Shown here: piece after piece, positions 1,640 through 37,720 of the stretch
Layout: each line of letters opens with the position of its first letter
Position numbering within the stretch: the first letter of the stretch is position 1
From: Watersipora subatra
Taxonomy: Eukaryota; Bryozoa; Gymnolaemata; Cheilostomatida; Watersiporidae
Direction: 5' to 3'
DNA: 64,000 bases
NCBI RefSeq assembly: GCF_963576615.1
Contig: NC_088717.1
Location: forward strand, 51,065,026-51,129,025
Notes under the pieces: generated by a model
Seen by the model: only the letters and a program-made list of their open reading frames with translations
What the model was told of the DNA's origin: nothing
Database searches by the model: none
Program-made: the position numbers and the translations under genes

Positions 1640-2698
1640 TTATTTAGATATTTCTGGTGTGCTGTTGTAGTTTGCTTTAAGCTCCTCTTTCTCTCTCTTC
1701 TGGTTGTGTTCATAAACCACAGCAAAGTTTCCTCCCACGATTGCAATAGGAAGAGCGGTTATTGTTAGACCCACAAGCATCACCACGATGGTAACTAGAT
1801 AGCCCGGAAAAGTTGTAGGATACATGTCTCCATAGCCAACTGTTGTCATAGTGACAATCACAAACCAATATGCTACAACAACACAAAATAACTGTATTTT
1901 ATGTGGAGAAAAAGAATTAATTTGATACACTCATGACTGCATGTATACATAGGCACACACACACCCACACATGCAAACACACACACTTGTACGCACGCGC
2001 GCGCACACACACATGCAAGCGCGCATGCACACACACACGCACACACATACACACACATATGGATGCACACACGCACATGAACACACGCACATGAACACAT
2101 GCACAGGAACACACGCACATGAACACACGCACACACATGAACACATGCACACATGCACACACATGGACAGACACACACAAATGGACACACACACATATGG
2201 ACACACACATGGACACACGCACACACATGGACACACACACACATGGATGCAGGCACACAAGTTGACCAACGCACACACATAGACACCACACACACATAGA
2301 CACACGCATAGACACTGCACACACATGAACACATACACCTGAACACATGCACACCCATGAACACACGCACACACATGGGCACACGCACACACACGGACAC
2401 AGACACACATGGACACATGTACACTCACACATGGACACATGTACACTCACACACACATGGACACATACATGTGCACCCATACACATGGACTCATATATAT
2501 GCACACACACATGAAAACCTACACATGCACAAACACATTGACACATATATATGCACGTACACATGGACACATACGCATGAACATACTCATGGACACATAC
2601 TCATGGACACATACTCATGGACACACACCAACACATTCCCACACATGCACGCTTACTCGCACACACAGACACATGCACATGTGCGCATCAATCCACTG

Positions 2699-2766
<68 letters not shown>

Positions 2767-5700
2767 TGAGCGACATAATCATGTCGCAGGTGTTGTGTAT
2801 AGAAGCCTATGTGATGAGTATGGCCTTAATAAACCACAACACTGGTGGGAAGCTCCTGGTAAGGTCAATGAAAATGACCGCGCTAAGATCCTCTGGGACT
2901 TCTACATCCAAACTGACAAGCATGTCCTAGCAAACCAACCAGATATAGTGGTGGTAGACAAGGAGAACAAGAGGGCTACTATAATAGATATAGCAGTACC
3001 CAATGACCACAATATAGCCAGCAAAGAAAAAGAAAAGGTAGAAAAATATCTCCCTCTTGGAGAAGAAATTGAAAAATGCTGGAATGTAAGAACAACTGTA
3101 ATCCCAGTAGTCATTGGGGCACTGGGCGCAATAACACCGGCGCATAAAATGTGGCTTGCCCAAATACCAACAACAATCAACTCAGGTGAGCTGTAGAAAA
3201 GTGCGCCATTAGGAACAGCTAAGATCTTGAGGTGAGTGCTCAAACTCCCAGGTCTCTAGTAGGAGACCCGAGTTAGAGCAGAATTTACCGCCCATACGGG
3301 GTATTCGGGGTGAGGAAACAATTTTTTATATATAGATTGTTATATATATAGATTGTTATATATATATTATGTATATATTGCCAGTTATTCATCTTCTACA
3401 GCTCGTTTTTAACAAATAAACTACTATTTTTTCCGTCACACTTGGAGGTTGGGGAAAAAGAATGTACTGTATGACTATGGGCTTCAGCACCATGCACACT
3501 ACCACCTGCATTAACTCTTTGCCATACATGTTTAAGAATAATTGTGTACATACATGTACTTATTTTCTGGCACACACGACGATCCCTCGCAACACAGCGG
3601 ACTGTCAAGGTACCACTTTTTACTATAATAAGAGTTGAGTATGTTAGAAGACACGCTTAGAGGTTAGGAGAAAATAATGTCTAGTGCAGGTATCGAACTT
3701 AAACATTCAGCTTAACAGCCAGGCACACTACCAACTGCCACTTAAACACCTTGCTGCATTATGGAATAATTGTGGAAATAGCTGTTACACACAAAAATCT
3801 CTCACAGAACACTAGACTCCCAGGGCACTAGTCATGTTAATTTAGGTAATACATTCATCACTAGTAGCTGCATGTACCTGAGGGAACACTACTAATGGTA
3901 TTCTCCTGGTCCGTGGCAGTTATTGAAGAGAAATAGATCATGGGTCCAAATATGAGAACTGACATGGTAAGCAGAGAGACAAGAAGAATTAACTCTTTCC
4001 AGCTTCTGTAGAAGGTTATTAGCAGTACCTTTAGTCCACTACAAGCAACTCATTCAGCTGGAATCACAGAAAATTTTCAAAGGAGCAGATAACTCTTTTA
4101 AGGCTGCTCATATGCATTATCTAGCCTACATCTAGCCTTGTGTTCTTTAGTGGGAGTTGATTTTTCTATCACTGTTGTCAAGATATTTCCTAGTTGGAAA
4201 CAAAGTGCATGCCCGCCTTTCAACTGGTTATTGTCAATGTGTGAACATACAAAGTGTGTTTAGATGAAGGTGCTTAAATGGGATTTCTGTTCTTTTACAA
4301 AAACTGAAAAGCCTCTTATTCTGCTTTTTTTGATTCAGTCTTTTAAGATTTGACCAAGTTTATAACTTTATATCATAAATATATATAAATATGTATATTT
4401 GTACCCATTTGAAGCATTTTCTATTCTCATATGGAGAAAACAAACTGGCATAACCTCTGCAATCAGAGCTTAAACAAAAATGTATTAATAATTTACAGTA
4501 AATCCTAAAGAGGAAAATGGGTACTTGGTCGTTGATCTTAGCGGTTTACCAGCAAGTAGTTTTGTTCATTTTGACTACAAAAGATTTTACTTGGGTGGCT
4601 TTTAATTAAGGATGATGGAGTTATTTACCCTTAAATTATGGTCAAGAAATACTTTAGCAGAGAGGAGACAACACCTCCAACTGCTCGCAAGTTCATGCTT
4701 CTCTCCTATTCTGACAAATAAATTAAGGCAGCATTAGGTTCAAGGTTTTTAGTTTTTACTCTCAAGTCGCTAATTAAAGTCACTCTAAAGTACGCTAATT
4801 TAAAGCCAGGTGTCTACATGAACAGTGGAACCATAAACACATGTAGCTCTCTATACTTGGATAATTCTATTGTGCTGGTTACCAAGTCATGTATCATATT
4901 TAGCATTGATTCAGTAAGCGATGACGATGGCGTTGATTCTGCTGAGAGATGTTTGGCCAAGATATTAAATGCATGAGAGCAGTTAAGACAATTTCCTGGT
5001 CATACAAAAATAGAAAGTCTATCGGAATGTGTTGGTGAACATGTTTATATAATATACTCTGCGTGCGAGAGGAGTAAACAGAAATTGTATAACTTTATTT
5101 GCATGAGATATTTAGTCACTGAAATCTCAATTTCAATAAATCGAGTGTGAACATGCCATATTGATATACAGTTACAATGCATAGTGCACTGTATGAACTA
5201 TGAAACGCAGTTTAACAGCATTTGTTAAATGTTAAAATTCTCAAAAGTAGAGCTTTGATACTGCATCACAACTTGCCATTGCCTAATATTTTGTCATTAA
5301 TTCTGCTGCTGTTATTGTAGGTAATGTAGCGTGATCTAAGGCTTTTCTTTAAGGTCTGAGTTCAAATCCCATTTCTGTACCATTATTTATAGTACTTTTT
5401 TCATGTCTAACACTGCTTACTGTTTTATTATTAGTTCTGTTGCTACTATTGCAGTTGTTGCTATAATAATAATTATTGCTGCTATAATCTATCCTATAAT
5501 ATGAGCAGCGTTTGTATGTCTAAAGTCAAGTTAAGAAAATTGTAAAAAAAAAAAATGGTCTCACAAAGGAATTGAACCCAGGTGTAAGTTTCAAAGGTAA
5601 GCTCACTACCATTACACCACTAGTAAACCCTGACCAGTACTTGGATAATTCTTCATATATCCTAATTACTCATGATGATCTCTCACCATGCACAGACTTG

Positions 5701-8700
5701 CAAGTGAACTAGTAATAATAATTATTGTTGCTGTTCTTATTGTACATTACTTGAGGTGGTATGCAATTAACTGAATTTGTTCCAATCACATTAAAAAACT
5801 GTTCAATATTTTATCTTTAAATGTTAGAGAAATGTCACATGGTTCAAACAAACAACTTACTAGTGTAAGTTCAAAACAGCAGAGAGCAGTTTGTACACAA
5901 ATATTCCATAGGACTAGGAAGAGTACCAACCTGTAAACAGACGCATAGCTGAGAAGTCGCAAGTATCTCATCTGTCCCACTCCAACTATGATCATTTGAG
6001 CGCAGAAAGCGGCAACGCATAGCGAAGAGCTGTTTTCAAACTGATCTGCGTTTGGCACAACCACAAAGATACCAAAAAGTGCAATAACGTAGAATACAGT
6101 TTCAGTGAGCGAAATGAGCATATCGACACCGTTTATCGATTTCCAAAACTTTCGTTTATTTGGACACGTGATGAACCTGATCCAAATCTCAATCGCGTAG
6201 ACGATGAAGCATAAGAGGTTCAAATAGCCAAAAACATCAGGAATGAGAACGAGCCACATGTCGTTGTACCCTTCGCAAGAAGTGTTGTACTTGATGTCTG
6301 GTAACCGAGTTGGTTGAGAGCTTGAGTTTGTCTCGACATTATTCCATGCAGCTGGTAAAGTCGAAATGGCAGATTGTAGAGCCGAAAACAGAGTAAATAG
6401 CAAATAGCCCACAGCAAACGCTTTTGAACCAGCGCGATACTGCGTATCTGGCCCGAATGGGTCGGTCAGAAAACACCAAATCAAGTATGCTTTCTGATTT
6501 TTTGAACCACCGTAGGTCTTGGCCTTGACATTTTTATTAAAATAATCAAATTGTTTGTCTAAGTCGCTACTGCTTTTCGCTTCTTGAATGCAGCATTCCG
6601 AAATATTTTCTGCAGCAACTTCCCAAAATTCCAAGTGAGACAGAAAGTCTGAATAGCAGATGTTCTTAGGGCAGTGCAGCTCACCGCCTATGTAAAACTT
6701 GAGAACCTCCTTGAATATTTCTGCATCGCTTTCAAAGAAATAATTGGTACCAGAAGGATCATTCCGTACAAGTTTACCGAGCCGAGATTTTGGATATTTC
6801 AGCAAAGTGCCGACAGTACTAACAAAGTTCTGTCCAGAAATGTTGATTATTATCTTTTTGCTCTTCATCTTTTCTGATGCCACAAAGTCTTGAATGTCAA
6901 CACTTTGCGGATTGTCATCAATGCCTGTTGGGAATATGGCAGCGATGTCTACCTACAACACAACATCATGACTCTAAATGTACGCTGACTTATTTTTTGG
7001 GTTTTCATTGCTTAAATGATAACTAGTATACAAAAATACTGAAAATAAAACACATTAATAGCCGGCAGCGCTGGAAATAAAATCTCTGGACCTTTACCAA
7101 AGAACAAGTTGGGTATAGTAAAGCTACCATCTTTTTAAAAATCAATACAGTAGCTGTTGCGTAGTAGTCTAGAATACCTGACCTACAAACAGCAGGTCAT
7201 GTTTCAATTTCAACAAGAGACGCAACGCCGGGAAGCACGGCTAGCACAGATATATAAATAAGGAATGAATTCTTTGACTCTCCACCATGTCTGCTGATAT
7301 GTATTATTAACAGCTATAGAATTTTATGGATTTACTGCCTGCATATTTTATGTCCATTTCATCACAGCCAGAAACCGGCCAAGTACTGTCATTAAGGTCT
7401 AAACCACAGCTAGAGCATTCTGGTATACATACATTCTCAATTATGGTTTAATACCATTTTCAAGGTTTTTCTTGATTTCTTACCAAAAGGTTATACAAAG
7501 GTCAAAGGTAAAGCTAATAAACAAAGTAAAGAGGATGACTAGCTCAGTATAGCTTACTAACCAGCCACTAGATCAACCAATCACCAGTGAGGATTTTAAA
7601 ACAGAAAGTTCTTAGAGCTAAGTAGAATAAAGAAAGAAATAGTAGTTGGGAGAATTAATTAATTAATTAATTAGTAGAAAGATTATCAATGATTCGCCAT
7701 AGTTATGGAATTTATGGAATTATTGTGCAGTTCACATTAGACAACCTTTTAAAATTAATAGCACAGAAGTAGCTTCAGGGCCAAAAATATTCCATTCTGA
7801 AGGTTTTCTGTTTCAACAGAACTTGGTTTTATGTCTTCCATTGCATGATGATTATATTTTTAGTAACTTGATGTTGAAAAATAGAGCTTGAAGCACTTAA
7901 AATGCAAGTTAATCATCATAGTATAAACTACATATATGTAGACATATAAAGATATACAGCGCAAACATCCGCGTTTCCGCAGGTAATATAAGTATGGTTC
8001 ATTTATGTCACTTGTTCATGTATATATATATATATATATATATTTGTTGCATTTGATGGATTATCTTTATTTAACTTATAAATTTGCAGATTTATAACAT
8101 ATTATTTGATAGCATCATTGCGGTAATCTATTCTTACAGTTGATTGACGCTCGTAACCCCGCTTTTAATTCATGTAAAAAGCTAGTCTGGCTGCGAACTT
8201 TAGCTAACATATCAATGAGTACAATGAGTTTTTATGCGACATTGGTAAGTATAAATATAAATTAAAAATATATCTTCAAATTTAGAATGAAGTAAAAATT
8301 GAAAACTCCAATAAATTGCAAAGCAGTACACAGGCTATAATATCATCGCAGGTGAATTTTAAGCAATAGATATCAACTGGTAGAGATGTTTCTTGGTTTC
8401 TCTATGCATATTTATTAAGAGATCTTTGCGAGTGGGAAGTAAGTTAGCAGATTTATTGCATCCAAAAGGCTTAATATCGCTTCACTGAAAAAAGAAGGCA
8501 AAATATAGGTGAAATTTGCCTCCTCCATAAAAGGGCTAAATTTATTTTATCAAAATTCTGACGAATCATATAAAAATACACCGTCAGCCTTTATTTGAAT
8601 GCCACCTCCAATTGACCACCTCTATAAAAGAAGGGTTAGAAATAGAGCCTCACGGTGTTCAATTGGAGGTTTTACGGTATATAAATAAATACGTATATGC

Positions 8701-8848
8701 ATTTTATGTATATATATACATAAATAGCTATTAGGATAATAGAATTGAAAAATATTACATTGAAAAGATAAGCAGAAAATAAGGCCTGTTGTGGTCAGAG
8801 CCATCTCTATTGCTTAAAGCAAGATAAGTTAGCATTTACCTTTGTCAT
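1640..8848 (-). CDS. Kv-type potassium channel subunit, gene 1 (degenerate S4)
   Basis: Pore-forming or modulatory subunit of a voltage-gated K+ channel in the plasma membrane. Four coding exons on the minus strand: 8840-8848 (ATG plus two codons), 5931-6952, 3878-4038 and 1640-1872. Phases agree throughout, giving 474 aa. The T1 domain (about 37-130) has the HX5CX20CC zinc motif (H96, C102, C123-C124) typical of Shab/Shaw/Shal-class Kv channels. Six membrane segments follow. The filter TVGYGD is at 408-413. S2 keeps the inner Glu and S3 keeps its Asp, but S4 reads GQMRYLRLLSY, so only the Shaker R3 and R4 equivalents remain. S6 has LPIAIVGGNF in place of LPVPVIVxNF. Only the 9-nt start exon is uncertain: upstream of 6952 the frame runs into an intron acceptor, and ATGACAAAG followed by gtaaat at 8839 fits in phase. 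It may be a silent (KvS-like) subunit or weakly voltage-dependent. Confidence 0.88.
1940..2699. repeat. CA/TG-rich tract in the last intron of Kv gene 1
   Basis: A run of (CA)n mixed with ACACATGGACACAC-type units, about 760 bp long, inside the intron between the S5 exon and the pore exon. Long open frames on both strands (Cys/Val-rich on minus, Thr/His-rich on plus) are simple consequences of the repeat and are not genes. Confidence 0.95.
2701..2765. repeat. (TA)n microsatellite
   Basis: A pure TA run that directly abuts the 5' edge of the LINE fragment starting near 2766. Confidence 0.97.
2766..3325 (+). mobile_element. LINE 3' end with restriction-like endonuclease domain (R2/R4-type)
   Basis: The 3' fragment of a non-LTR retrotransposon ORF. 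The reading frame gives a Cys/His-containing stretch (HNHVAGVVYRSLC) and then the core QPDIVVVDKENKRATIIDIA, which fits a PD-(D/E)xK restriction-like endonuclease as in R2/R4-clade LINEs. It continues through VVIGALGAITPAHKMWL to an in-frame TAG near 3194 and a C-terminal LGTAKIL-like block after it. There is no reverse transcriptase here, so the copy is 5'-truncated. It is flanked by TA repeats on both sides and lies in a Kv gene 1 intron. The clade is inferred from the domain only. Confidence 0.75.
3326..3385. repeat. TATATAGATTGT short tandem repeat
   Basis: TA-rich tail next to the LINE 3' end, with tandem tatatatagattgt units. It may be the element's own 3' tail or the continuation of the target microsatellite. 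Confidence 0.7.
3400..3612 (-). mobile_element. tRNA-derived SINE-like copy
   Basis: Reverse complement shows an A-box-like ggtggtagtgtgcatgg followed by family spacing; the motif ctttgccatacatg and the cgatccctcgcaacac edge match the head of sister copies. It lies directly next to another copy in the same orientation. Confidence 0.4.
3621..3832 (-). mobile_element. SINE, TTATTATAGT-tailed family
   Basis: Begins with tactataataag (reverse complement of the tail) and ends with the actag head at 3826-3832. It contains the reverse complement of a tRNA-like promoter (ggcacactaccaactgcc, tatcgaact) and the shared attatggaataattgtg block. Confidence 0.5.
5555..5712 (-). mobile_element. tRNA-derived SINE copy
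   Basis: On the minus strand the A box (tgtaatggtagtgagc) and B box (gggttcaattcc) are both well preserved and about 30 nt apart, which is RNA polymerase III promoter spacing. The remainder (gatgatctctcaccatgc, actag) matches the family head. It is not a functional tRNA: no acceptor stem can be formed. Confidence 0.6.
7998..8677 (+). repeat. dispersed repeat family, copy A
   Basis: Aligns by eye over almost its whole length with 42121-42791, for example ttcatttatgtcacttgttc, catattatttgatagcatc and acatatcaatgagt. It ends with the same ggttttacgg at the right edge. It lacks the left part seen in copy B, so it is truncated or rearranged. It lies in intron 1 of Kv gene 1. Confidence 0.75.
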
Positions 8849-9412
8849 GATGGAGCCTCTGTTGTATTCCCTTAAGTGGCTCACAACACCAGCAGCTCAG
8901 ACTCACACAGACTAATGTGTTATTTAACAGATGTATTGCTGATAATAGAAATTAAAGGATGTACATTTGAATTATGCATTATTTTTAGCCAATGAAAAAC
9001 AAATAATTATTCAAAAGCTCATCAGATTTCCGATACAAATTTCATAGGTCATGTACAAGATCAATGCATGCATCGCAAAGAGTGAAAGTTGTTAGTACGG
9101 ATGTGGTGATAACAACTCACATATTATGTGAGTTGTACAATAACTTATTGAGCTGTGTTCACTAGCCAACTTTGCATGATAACGAAAGTCATTGCTAATA
9201 CCGATAGTAGTTAACAAGTAGGGCCTATAGTAGAATTACTTATGAAATATGCTAAAGTTATTAAAGAATTTGTTATTAAAGAATATAAAAATATAAGCTC
9301 AAAAGAAATAATAAAAGCATATAGAAACGTTTTTCAATGTTTATTTGAAATGTACAACAAACTATTGAAATATAAAACCAAAAGTATCTATTTTAGTTAG
9401 TTTTTAAGGCTA
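8849..9412. other. intergenic region between the two Kv genes
   Basis: A 564-bp gap containing the 5' leader and presumed promoter of Kv gene 1 on its low-coordinate side and the 3' UTR of Kv gene 2 on its high side. No exon or convincing core promoter element is visible. Short AT-rich runs only. Confidence 0.5.
9340..9345 (-). promoter_or_regulatory. poly(A) signal AATAAA of Kv gene 2
   Basis: The plus-strand tttatt reads AATAAA on the minus strand, about 70 nt after the Kv gene 2 stop codon, the position expected for a short 3' UTR. Confidence 0.6.
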
Positions 9413-12400
9413 CTAAACGCTAACTGTAGAACTTCTGTTCTGCAAAGTTGCTGTTAAATGTTCTTTTTTGCCAGATTGTCTCTTCGCACGCTCTTGATTG
9501 TGTTTATAGACTATAGCAAAGTTTCCTCCAACAATAGCAATAGGAAGGGAGGTCATCGTAAGTCCCGCTATCATTACAACAACAGCAATCAGGTATCCAG
9601 GAAGTCTAGTCGGATACATGTCTCCATAGCCAACTGTTGTCATGGTGACTAGTACAAACCAATATGCTGTAAAGATACATTGAGATATATGAGAGTTAGT
9701 TTACATAAACAATTTTTAGATTAAATAACTTGGTAACTTACAGAAAAGAGTTTACCACTCTTGTAGCTTGTGTAGATGTCAATTCTCAAGGTCAGTTCTT
9801 TAACTTTCTCTGTTAACTGATACTGTATGTTTTTTTCTCAAATGTCCAACTATTACTGCTTAAGAACCTACTTGCTACCTAGGCTTTGTGCTTGACAGGT
9901 TTCCACTACATGCATATTAAAAAATAAAAGTTGTCTGCACCTGGAACACTTGCTCAAATGCATACTAGTAATTGGGAGATGAATACATGTAGAACTGAGT
10001 CAGCTTGCTTGAAAGCCAATTTTTTCAACATCATTTTTGAAAAAATTACAAACTACAAAATTTTATCTAAACTATTTGCTAGTCAAACTGACTGTTGAGA
10101 AGAACTAAATTTGCATCTCACATTTATGTGTGAGCTGTGCGGAGTTGCAGCACTAAAATATTTTATGAGTTTTATAATTATCAGAGTTAATAATATAGTG
10201 ATAATGCAGATATGTAATAGTTTACCCTCAGGAACACTTGTGATGGAAGGTCTATCATTCATTGATCCTAGTGACAAGAAGTAGACCAGGGGACCAAATA
10301 TGAGGACAGACATAGCCAACAGGGCAAAAAGTAGCAGGATTTCCTTCCAACTTCTGTACAGAGTGATTAGTAAGACCTTTAGTCCACTGTAAGAAAAATA
10401 CTGAATTGTTGAAAGTTACTAATATTATCCTGAGGGACTAATATGATACTGAGTGACTAATATAATACTGAGTGACTAATAGGATACTAAGTGACTAATA
10501 TGATGCTGAGTGACTAATATGATACTGAGTGACAGATATGATACTGAGTGACTAACATGATACTGAGTGACTAATATGATGCTGAGTATGTAATATGATA
10601 CTGAGTGACTGATATGATACTGAGTGACTAACATGATACTGAGTGACTAATATGATGCTGAGTGTGTAATATGATACTGAGTGACTGATATGATACTGGG
10701 CGACTAATATGATACTGAGTGACTAATATGATACCGAGCGACTAATATGATACTGAGTGACTAATATGATACTGAGTGACTAATATGATACCGAGTGACT
10801 AATATGATACTGAGTGATTAATATGATACTGAGCGACAAATATGTTACTGAGTGACTAATATGATACTGAGTGACTAATATGATGCTGAGTGACTAATAT
10901 GATACCGAGTGACTAATATGGTACTGAATGACCAATATGATACGAAGTGACTAATATGTTACTGAATGACTAATATGATACTGAGTAACTAATAGGATAC
11001 TGAGTAACTAATATGATACTGAATGATCAATATGATTATGACTGACTAAAATGATACCGAGTGACTAATATGATACTGCGAGACAAATATGTTACTGAGT
11101 GACTAATATGATATTGAGTGACTAATATGGTACTGAATGAATAATATGATACAAAGTGACTAATATGTTTACTGAGTGACTAATATGATACTCAGTGACT
11201 TATATGATACTGAGTGACTAATATGATACTGAGTGACTGATATGATACTGAGTGACTAAAATGATACTGAGTGACCAATATGATACGAAGTGACTAATAT
11301 GATACCGAGTGACTAATATGATACTGAGCGACTAATATGATACTGAGTGACTAATATGATACTGAGTGACTAATATGATACTGAGTGACTAATATGATAC
11401 TGAGTGACTAATATGATACCGAGTGACTAATATGATACTGAACGACAAATATGTTACTGAGTGACTAATATGATACTGAGTGACTAGTATGATACTGAGT
11501 GCCTGATATGATACTGAGTGACTAATATGACACTGAATGACTGATATGATACTGAGTGAGTAGTTAGCATTGAATGATTATTATAGAATTAAGGGAATGA
11601 CATAATACTGCGTAATAAAATAAGAAAATTCGCATCAAGATAATAAACGATTGACAAAATATTAAGTTAGTAAAATAGCTTTGATCGGCTAACACACTTC
11701 AAGTAACTAATATCTTCAGCTTTAATCAGAAAAAAATTTACAAAATTCGAAACTCGGTATACCTGATTTGAGAATCTTACTTACAGTGCGTGTATCAGTA
11801 AATGACCAATAAGACAATCCTTCTGTTGCTAGATAGTCTTATCTGCATATTAATGTACAGCTAGCCAAACAGATGTACTTGAATTGTTGGTGACCTTGTC
11901 TATGTGTGTATAATTAAGGTGACAATATACCTCAGTCGAAATATTGATGTACAATTAACGATTCAGTTGCGTCTCAATTTTGGAAAAAGTAAGTTAATAT
12001 ATTGACAGACAATATAAAACAGGCATACATCATTTATTTGAGCAGCTTACCTGTATATCGTGGCATAGCTAAGGAGACGGACATATCTTAGCTGTCCAAC
12101 TACCAGAATTATCATTTGAGAGCAAAAAGCGGTTACGCACCAAGCGGAACTGTTGCTGAAATAAACTGGCCTTTGTGCGACAAAGTAAATTCCAAAAAGA
12201 GCTAAAGCATAACATATCGACTCGATCAGAGATATTGTAAAGTCGAGTGCGTTAATCGATCTCCAGAAGCCATGTTTACTGGGACACGTAATGAATCTTG
12301 CCCAGACTTCTAGAAGATAAATGAAGGAGCAGGATAAGTTAAGGAATCCAAAAATGTCAGGAATCACATCGAGCCACTTAGAAGCGTACTCCTGACATGT

Positions 12401-13051
12401 CATGTCAAATGAAAGCTCTGGAAATCTTTGAAGAACCTGTATACTTCCATTCGAAGTGTTACCAGGTATCCATGTACCCGGTATAGTTGCCACTGCTGAA
12501 ACAGTTCCAGCAAACAGAGTAAATAGAAAATAGCCTAATGCCCATATTTTGGCACAAGTTTTATATTTGGTATCTGGTCCAAAAGGATCAGTCAAGAAGC
12601 ACCACACAGCGTAAGACCACGAGTATTTGTCATCAGTATTTGCTGATGTTAATTTAATTCGCCGGTTAAAAAACTCAAATTGCTTCTCCAAGTCGTGTCT
12701 TTCATCAAGATTCTGAGCGCAGCAGTCTGATACCGCTGCAGTGTCAATCTCCCAAAATTTCAAGTGAGACAGGAAGTCTGAGTAGCAAATATTCTTAGGA
12801 CAGTGAAGCTCACCGCTTATATAGAACTTGAGAACCTCTTTGAAAATTTCAGGATCGCTTTCAAAGAAGTACTTGGCACGGGACGGTTCCTTTTGTACCA
12901 ACTTGCCGAGTCGAGATTCTGGGTATTTTAATAAAGTGTCAACATTACTAACAAAGTTCTGTCCAGAAATCTGAATTAAAATTTTACATTCTTCTTTTCT
13001 CAAACCCAGCTCTGGAAAATCTTCAAGGATGCAATCTTCCAACGTTTCCAT
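9413..13051 (-). CDS. Kv-type potassium channel subunit, gene 2 (degenerate S4)
   Basis: Paralogue of Kv gene 1, lying directly upstream of it on the same strand. Coding exons 12051-13051, 10226-10386 and 9413-9666 are in phase and give 471 aa. The ATG sits immediately after a strong acceptor (tttttttggcag), so a 5' untranslated exon probably lies further upstream. T1 has HX5CX20CC (H83, C89, C110-C111). S2 keeps the inner Glu (LLEVWARF) and S3 keeps Asp. S4 reads GQLRYVRLLSY, again with only two arginines. The filter TVGYGD is at 398-403, and S6 has SLPIAIVGGNF. Introns fall at the same places as in gene 1: phase 2 inside S4 and phase 1 just before the pore helix. The exon holding S5 is exactly 161 nt in both. 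The two are a tandem duplication; gene 2 could be the partner subunit of gene 1. Confidence 0.9.
10417..11560. repeat. 19-bp minisatellite, about 60 copies
   Basis: Unit actgagtgactaatatgat, mostly 19 bp with single-base variants, filling most of the intron between the S4 and S5 exons of Kv gene 2. Confidence 0.97.
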
Positions 13052-36670: not shown

Positions 36671-36789
36671 CTGCGAACAGCAGCAGAAAATGATTACTAG
36701 ATGCTCAGATGAGTTTAAGATAAAGCACGTAGATAAACCGCCACTTGCAAAAGATTCTGTCAATAACGCCAAAGAGCTGATTAACAGAA

Positions 36790-37300
36790 CCACCTGTGAG
36801 ACCAGCTAGAAGACCAGCTGCGAGACCAGCTGTGAAACCAGCTGTGAGACCAGCTATGAAACCAGCTACGAGACCAGCTGTGAGACAAGCTATGGGGCCA
36901 GCTGTGAGACCGTCTATGAGACCGGCTATGAAACCATCTATAAGACTAGCTATGAGACTAGCTATAAGACTAGCTATGAGACTAGCTATGAGACTAGCTA
37001 TAAGACTAGCTATGAGACTAGCTATGAGACTAGCTATAAGACTAGCTATAAGACTAGCTATGAGACTAGCTATGAGACTAGCTATAATACTAGTTATGCG
37101 ACTAGCTATAAGACTAGCTATGCGACTAGCTATGAGAGTAGTTATGAGACTAGCTATAAGACTAGCTATGAGACTAACTATAAGACTAGTTATAAGACTA
37201 GCTATAAGACCAGCTATAAGACTAGCTATAAGACTAGCTATGAGACTAGCTATAATACTAGCTATAATACTAGCTATGAGACTAGCTATGAAACCATCTA
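36790..37300. repeat. 12-bp minisatellite, about 42 copies
   Basis: Unit agactagctatg, alternating with agactagctata, which gives a 24-bp higher-order pattern. The left end has agaccagctgtg variants. The plus-strand frame of repeating Arg-Leu-Ala-Met/Ile is a by-product. It lies just upstream of the first confirmed exon of the LRR gene. Confidence 0.95.
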
Positions 37301-37720
37301 GTGACTAAGTGCAATTTAAAATCTTTTCAAAGATCAAAAATTCTATGCAGAATAGGTTTTATTCTTATTGAGATGAATAGCGAGTATAAGTGATGTTGCG
37401 CGTTGAGATGTCACAAAAATTCAACATCATATAAAAGTGCAGAATGACTTTTCCCTGAAAACATCTGTAACTGCAGCAACCTATTTGATGTTGTGAACAT
37501 AAAGATGACCAATATGAGAAGGCTCAAGAGAGGCAAAAAAAGATGATTGTTCTTTATTATGAAAGCAACTATTGAATTGATTAGAAAACCAGATGGTGAA
37601 AAGCACTGACAAAATCTTACCAGTGGTACTTGTGGTTTTCCCATTACTGTACATCAGTGTATTCAGTGCTAACAGCTCTCAAGTCATAACCTATAAATGT
37701 GCAACAAAAGGCCAACTTAC

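Follow-up and report, generated by a model that had tools for sequence, protein, structure and literature searches.

Two voltage-gated K+ channel (Kv) genes, here called A and B, lie in tandem in a 64,000-nucleotide stretch of the Watersipora subatra genome (the window; contig NC_088717.1, C10:51065026-51129025). Both belong to a clade of 12 fully modelled genes in which the S4 segment keeps basic residues only at the Shaker R3 and R4 positions. What strictly accompanies this stripped S4 is a change of the S6 gate, in which Ala replaces P475 and Gly replaces V478. With a probability of roughly 0.48, we read A and B as modulatory (regulatory or R-type, silent) subunits that would assemble through their T1 domains, carry a disarmed voltage sensor and form part of a distinct, tandemly expanded Kv clade. 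Both are three-exon genes on the minus strand with a T1 domain and a TVGYGD filter, laid out as follows (window positions).

5931-6952, minus strand: gene A exon 1, T1 domain and S1-S4 (BTB_2, splice joints, gene model; coding from the acceptor at 6952)
6275-6277, minus strand: gene A, Cys codon in the S1-S2 loop (C206 of the 320-residue exon product)
6017-6019, minus strand: gene A, Cys codon 11 residues ahead of the R1 position (C292)
5933-5986, minus strand: gene A S4, R1 position through exon end, with R3 and R4 as sole basic residues (alignment)
3878-4038, minus strand: gene A exon 2, S4-S5 linker and S5 (splice joints, gene model)
1640-1872, minus strand: gene A exon 3, pore and S6 up to the stop codon (Ion_trans_2 and Ion_trans, gene model)
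1827-1843, minus strand: gene A, TVGYGD coding stretch (pattern match)
1733-1750, minus strand: gene A, S6 gate codons P-I-A-I-V-G (P473 to V478 positions)
12051-13051, minus strand: gene B exon 1, T1 domain and S1-S4 (BTB_2, gene model; opens with Met directly after the acceptor)
12053-12106, minus strand: gene B S4, R1 position through exon end, with R3 and R4 as sole basic residues (alignment)
10226-10386, minus strand: gene B exon 2, S4-S5 linker and S5 (splice joints, gene model)
9413-9666, minus strand: gene B exon 3, pore and S6 up to the stop codon (Ion_trans and Ion_trans_2, gene model)
9621-9637, minus strand: gene B, TVGYGD coding stretch (pattern match)
9527-9544, minus strand: gene B, S6 gate codons P-I-A-I-V-G

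Pfam identified BTB_2 on exon 1 (5.7e-15 in A, 3.6e-17 in B) and both Ion_trans and Ion_trans_2 on the last exon of each gene. The exon joints fall in the same phase in A and B, reading TAC AG/T GGA CTA after S4 and G/CA TAT TGG before the pore helix (the slash marks the joint). A search for the filter-coding stretch gave two matches, one in each gene at the sites listed above, against none in 100 shuffles; an earlier note, made from the letters of the window, had likewise read TVGYGD as intact in both. Neither a start codon nor an upstream start exon was found for gene A, so the gene model has no upstream exon, and gene B can start at the Met at 13051. A long open frame with no Pfam match lies inside an intron of gene A (window 2312-3196); its last third resembles what we take to be part of a mobile-element protein.

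The 784-Mb genome was searched with the first exon of gene A (26 matches) and with its pore exon (35 matches). A cluster at C10:50.87-51.08 Mb was found to hold eight intact-looking genes, a degenerate copy and fragments. Genes P1, P2, P3 and P4 are on the plus strand, and M1, M2, A and B are on the minus strand; all eight have open frames and matching splice joints. The degenerate copy, a copy of gene A (C10:51.039-51.045 Mb), is rearranged in parts and interrupted by in-frame stops; close to it, in opposite orientation, lie one fragment of S5 and one of the pore. More distant relatives are D1, D2 and an extra first exon, D3 (C10:2.33-2.35 Mb), E1 (C4:2.62 Mb) and F1 (C3:48.92 Mb). First-exon queries with D1 (25 matches) and F1 (17 matches) brought in nothing beyond canonical Kv genes and one candidate, C3:57488100-57488700, which was rejected as a clade member because its S4 is well charged. 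The tandem pair described in the earlier note is thus real in both its genes, as part of an eight-gene cluster and a 12-gene clade; this larger set, the altered S6 gate and the conserved loop cysteines described below go beyond what that note had claimed.

Counts over 12 genes exclude D3 (a T1-S4 exon that lacks its own pore exons), the degenerate copy and several weak pore-only matches, including C2:75468998, C6:44033043 and C10:32782891. The pore joint of E1 was modelled at a GT donor, and the S5-pore joint of F1 is uncertain. At C10:2341099-2353348 (L051 and L052), the T1-S4 exons of D3 and then D2 are followed by just one S5 exon and one pore exon, with no pore exons found in the interval that separates D3 from D2. 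D3 may therefore serve as an alternative start of the D2 gene, or be a remnant. F1 (L027), the deepest member of the clade, is without the T1 zinc motif, and its S5-pore joint is unusual.

In a tree built with the S4 columns excluded, all 12 genes fall on one side of a branch with support of 100/99, apart from the Kv1-Kv4 genes of the same genome in the best tree. A and B are sisters (support 95/93), and F1 forms a very long branch. The labels of the Kv1 and Kv4 genes of this genome rest on recognition and grouping, with Protein Data Bank (PDB) searches for L003, L007 and L008 only. The neighbour of the clade in the best tree is Kv4, with support of only 56/30. Approximately unbiased (AU) tests, which together with their tree left out F1 and the Kv1-like gene L034, gave p-AU values of 0.158, 0.329 and 0.31 for joining the clade to Kv1, Kv2 and Kv3, respectively, and joining to Kv2 or Kv3 was not rejected. 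Assignment of the clade to Kv1, Kv2, Kv3 or Kv4 was rejected, as neither the AU tests nor the support values settle its sister group.

The voltage sensor was compared in an alignment of the clade genes with 14 canonical rows, namely 12 Kv1-Kv4 genes of the same genome and Kv2.1 and Kv3.1 from the PDB. In the S4 of both A and B, R3 and R4 are Arg, R2 is Gly and K5 is Ser; A and B differ at R6 (Ser and Thr, respectively) and at R1 (Val and Leu, respectively). The earlier note had described this S4 correctly, except that it placed Val at R1 in both genes. Similarly, R3 and R4 are basic in all 12 clade genes, with Lys at R3 in D1 and D2 and at R4 in F1, and R1, R2, K5 and R6 are non-basic in all 12. 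All 14 canonical rows have a basic residue at R3, R4 and K5, 13 have one at R6, 12 at R2 and five at R1. Kv channels of the Shaker superfamily are recognized by an S4 with at least four regularly spaced basic residues, whereas every clade gene has R3 and R4 only. P1, P2, P3, P4, M1 and M2 carry one basic residue immediately ahead of the R1 position, which leaves their S4 a little less depleted of charge than in A and B. Two Kv3-type genes of the same genome, L008 and L055, have Glu at R1 and Ser at R2 and keep R3, R4, K5, R6 and the Pro-X-Pro (PXP) motif of S6; they represent a milder S4 reduction outside the clade.

All 12 genes retain an aromatic residue at F290, together with the inner acid of S2 and the Asp of S3. 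In A and B these residues are Tyr, Glu and Asp, and the E283 position is Asn, as had been noted before. The outer arginines and their acidic partner in S2 had also been proposed to be lost in a coordinated way, which the wider clade does not support. The outer S2 acid (E283 position) is gone in 10 of the 12 genes, but Asn occurs only in A and B, the other members having A, S, D, G, Q, E or K. E1 (Glu) and M1 (Asp) hold an acid at this position despite an equally stripped S4. Asn at E283 was therefore rejected as a matched partner of the lost arginines.

The S6 gate is altered in the same way throughout the clade. All 12 genes have Ala for P475 and Gly for V478, a change found in none of the 13 canonical rows with letters there; those 13 all have Pro at P475, and 12 of them have Val at V478, the other having Thr. 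The hinge therefore reads P-x-A in place of PXP in every member. Both PXP and V478 are described as part of the Kv hinge and seal in PMC3440756. Of 23 pore columns that are invariant in the clade, three hold a letter absent from every canonical row, and A475 and G478 are two of these three. Position F484 is Val or Ile in 11 of the 12 genes, although Ile is also present in both Kv4 genes of the same genome. The sequence VGYGD and W434 are kept in all 12 genes. Outside the clade, the Kv1-like gene L032 (C3:73579765-73580517), which has a full S4, carries Leu at the first proline position of PXP.

Three further marks lie in the T1 and sensor domains. The sequence FLTDP ahead of S1 is present in 12 of 12 clade genes and in none of the 14 canonical rows. 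The T1 zinc motif HX5CX20CC is found in 11 clade genes and in all six Kv2-Kv4 rows of the same genome that cover T1; none of the five Kv1-type rows, one of them with a partial T1, contains it. A column in the S1-S2 loop is Cys in all 12 clade genes, and a column 11 residues ahead of R1 is Cys in 11 of 12, compared with none of the 14 canonical rows in either case. Both cysteines are present in D3 as well, whereas F1 lacks the second and has two Cys in its S1-S2 loop. The S1-S2 loop Cys and the Cys ahead of R1 may be joined by a disulfide, which would tether S4 at its outer end.

The cysteine pair was considered as a clade-only sign of a locked S4, and this candidate was weakened by loop cysteines in Kv1-like genes and by gaps in the canonical rows. 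An AlphaFold model of gene A exon 1, built with ten sequences, had a mean pLDDT of 69.3 and a pTM of 0.47; it yielded no Cys-Cys distance. Foldseek matched this model to Kv channels (72 matches at E <=0.001). Since whole-chain TM-scores were low (0.24-0.40 for the full channels listed), the position of S4 was not read from the model.

The ratio of nonsynonymous to synonymous substitution rates (dN/dS) stays below 1 for all regions and pairs that allowed its computation; dS was saturated or non-computable for several pairs and regions. By the NG86 method, the M1-M2 pair gave 0.077 for the pore, 0.164 for T1 and 0.244 for the sensor domain, and the pair of P1 and P4 gave 0.093, 0.185 and 0.501, respectively. 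The YN00 values for P1 and P4 were higher (0.147, 0.286 and 0.733). Where computed, NG86 values ranged from 0.05 to 0.26 for the pore and from 0.11 to 0.26 for T1. Purifying selection acts on T1 and the pore, with looser constraint on the sensor domain. The comparison of A with B, which had been proposed earlier, gave a dN of 0.335 and a dS of 2.12 over the whole length, near saturation, and sensor-domain dS was not computable; the duplication that produced A and B is old. Sensor and pore identities are 52 and 71% for A-B, 57 and 95% for P3-M1, and 71 and 97% for M1-M2. Four canonical pairs gave 83 and 93, 72 and 82, 70 and 88, and 85 and 87%. Unusually fast change of the sensor domain is clear against these four pairs, but the suggestion is weakened by the divergent Kv1-like pair L032-L034, with 54 and 70% (66 pore columns), which resembles A-B.

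These features make it natural to expect that A and B are weakly voltage-dependent or modulatory. Read against the Shaker scheme of S4 charge movement, the clade has lost the charges that act at either end of the stroke, while it keeps R3, R4 and their partners. Because the remaining R3 and R4 would find their partners in the inner Glu of S2 and the Asp of S3, S4 would move little charge across the field. A subunit of this kind would assemble through T1 with a conducting Kv subunit and would alter both the voltage dependence of its partner and the energetics of the inner gate. More speculatively, a disulfide from the S1-S2 loop to the stretch ahead of S4 would restrain S4 further. A modulatory role is the best reading, with a self-sufficient channel of weak voltage dependence as a close rival. 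It is put ahead because of a published regularity: the second proline of PXP is absent in all vertebrate silent Kv subunits as treated in PMC3440756, and altered gates are reported for 43 of 44 R-subunits in PMC9989356.

Several observations weigh against a modulatory role. Both gate positions are identical in 12 genes, unlike the variation expected of R-subunits, whose gate changes are attributed to relaxed selection in the account of PMC9989356. The same source treats gate changes as a marker, not a cause, of R-type assembly. The clade has no member with a canonical gate to serve as a conducting partner; therefore, partners must come from Kv1-Kv4, and the putative fit of the clade T1 to that of Kv1-Kv4 is something a modulatory role would require. 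Separately from the question of role, the proposed disulfide is weakened by the Kv1-like genes L032, L034 and L006, which have a full S4 and yet carry one Cys each in the S1-S2 and S3-S4 loops, the latter 14, 14 and 7 residues from R1, respectively. In addition, 13 of the 14 canonical rows have a gap at the second Cys column, which reduces the contrast between the clade and other Kv genes.

It is possible, though less probable than a modulatory role, that the clade genes encode self-sufficient K+ channels with weak or no voltage dependence, whose tetramers would conduct near rest or open in response to another signal. Small residues at 475 and 478 would loosen the inner seal, and the pore would need little help from S4. 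The filter and W434, kept in every member, are consistent with this, as are the uniformity of the new gate across 12 genes and the place of A475 and G478 among the three clade-specific pore letters. Higher unitary conductance has been described for Shaker P475D/Q (PMC10140501), and constitutive conductance for Shaker P475 mutants (PMC3406610). However, uncoupling of the Shaker sensor from the pore can also leave the pore shut, according to the latter source, and Kv channels are described as tolerating Ala poorly at the PXP prolines (PMC3440756).

A locked sensor, in which the disulfide would pin the two-arginine S4 and the P-x-A-x-x-G gate would let the pore work without it, leaving the sensor as a fixed scaffold, seems unlikely. 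Still less probable is an ordinary voltage-gated channel, in which two arginines per subunit would suffice for a depolarisation-opened current with a shallower slope. R3, R4, the F290 aromatic, the inner S2 acid and the S3 Asp are indeed kept in 12 of 12 genes, six of which have the basic residue ahead of R1, and R1 and R2 are likewise missing from Kv3b and Kv3c of the same genome, which retain PXP. Against this stand the joint loss of R1, R2, K5 and R6 and the broken PXP, both in 12 of 12. That A and B are themselves decaying or unexpressed copies is very improbable: the degenerate copy and two further fragments in the same cluster and the missing start exon of gene A point that way, but the open frames and matching splice joints of eight genes and dN/dS below 1 do not. 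The earlier statement that the stripped S4 has been retained rather than left by decay is supported by its presence in all 12 genes and by these dN/dS values. Elsewhere in the window, a short-unit repeat at 36705-37308 is open in three reading frames on both strands.

Several known Kv groups share some of these features. Vertebrate silent Kv subunits (Kv5, Kv6, Kv8 and Kv9), like the clade, keep T1 and the K+ filter and lack the second proline of PXP (PMC3440756), and they are placed in the Kv2 subfamily in PMC3519636. In contrast, the clade is separate from Kv2 in the best tree, although joining it to Kv2 was not rejected (p-AU 0.33). Neither a two-arginine S4 nor G478 is known to be a fixed feature of vertebrate silent subunits. 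Kv7 (KCNQ) channels are likewise not known to have PXP in S6, and KCNQ2 pores were among the weaker PDB matches to the pore exon of gene A; no T1 domain is known in Kv7 channels, whereas the clade has one.

Cnidarian Kv R-subunits, as described in PMC9989356 and PMC3519636, also form large independent expansions with an S6 gate altered in most. These lie inside Shaker, Shaw and Shal, and their gate changes differ by the published account, whereas in the clade the same two gate changes recur in all 12 genes, together with a reduced S4. Several animal groups have independent Kv expansions and R-subunits according to PMC3519636, which also reports large Shaw (Kv3) sets in lophotrochozoans, such as 13 genes in Lottia and nine in Capitella. 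The bryozoan clade could be counted among such large sets of invertebrate T1-bearing Kv genes. The Kv3-type genes of the same genome lie outside it, although joining it to Kv3 was not rejected (p-AU 0.31).

No description of a two-arginine S4 together with a P-x-A-x-x-G gate was found in the literature searched, which comprised titles, abstract openings and selected passages, with most subscription journals outside it. Throughout the 12 genes, loss of S4 charge goes uniformly with a new gate, which makes the clade a natural experiment on the need of a Kv channel for its voltage sensor. Each change could be transferred singly into or out of laboratory channels. If A, B and their relatives are modulatory, the clade would be a further independent origin of the modulatory-subunit role. 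If they conduct alone, they would illustrate a route by which a Kv pore escapes voltage control.

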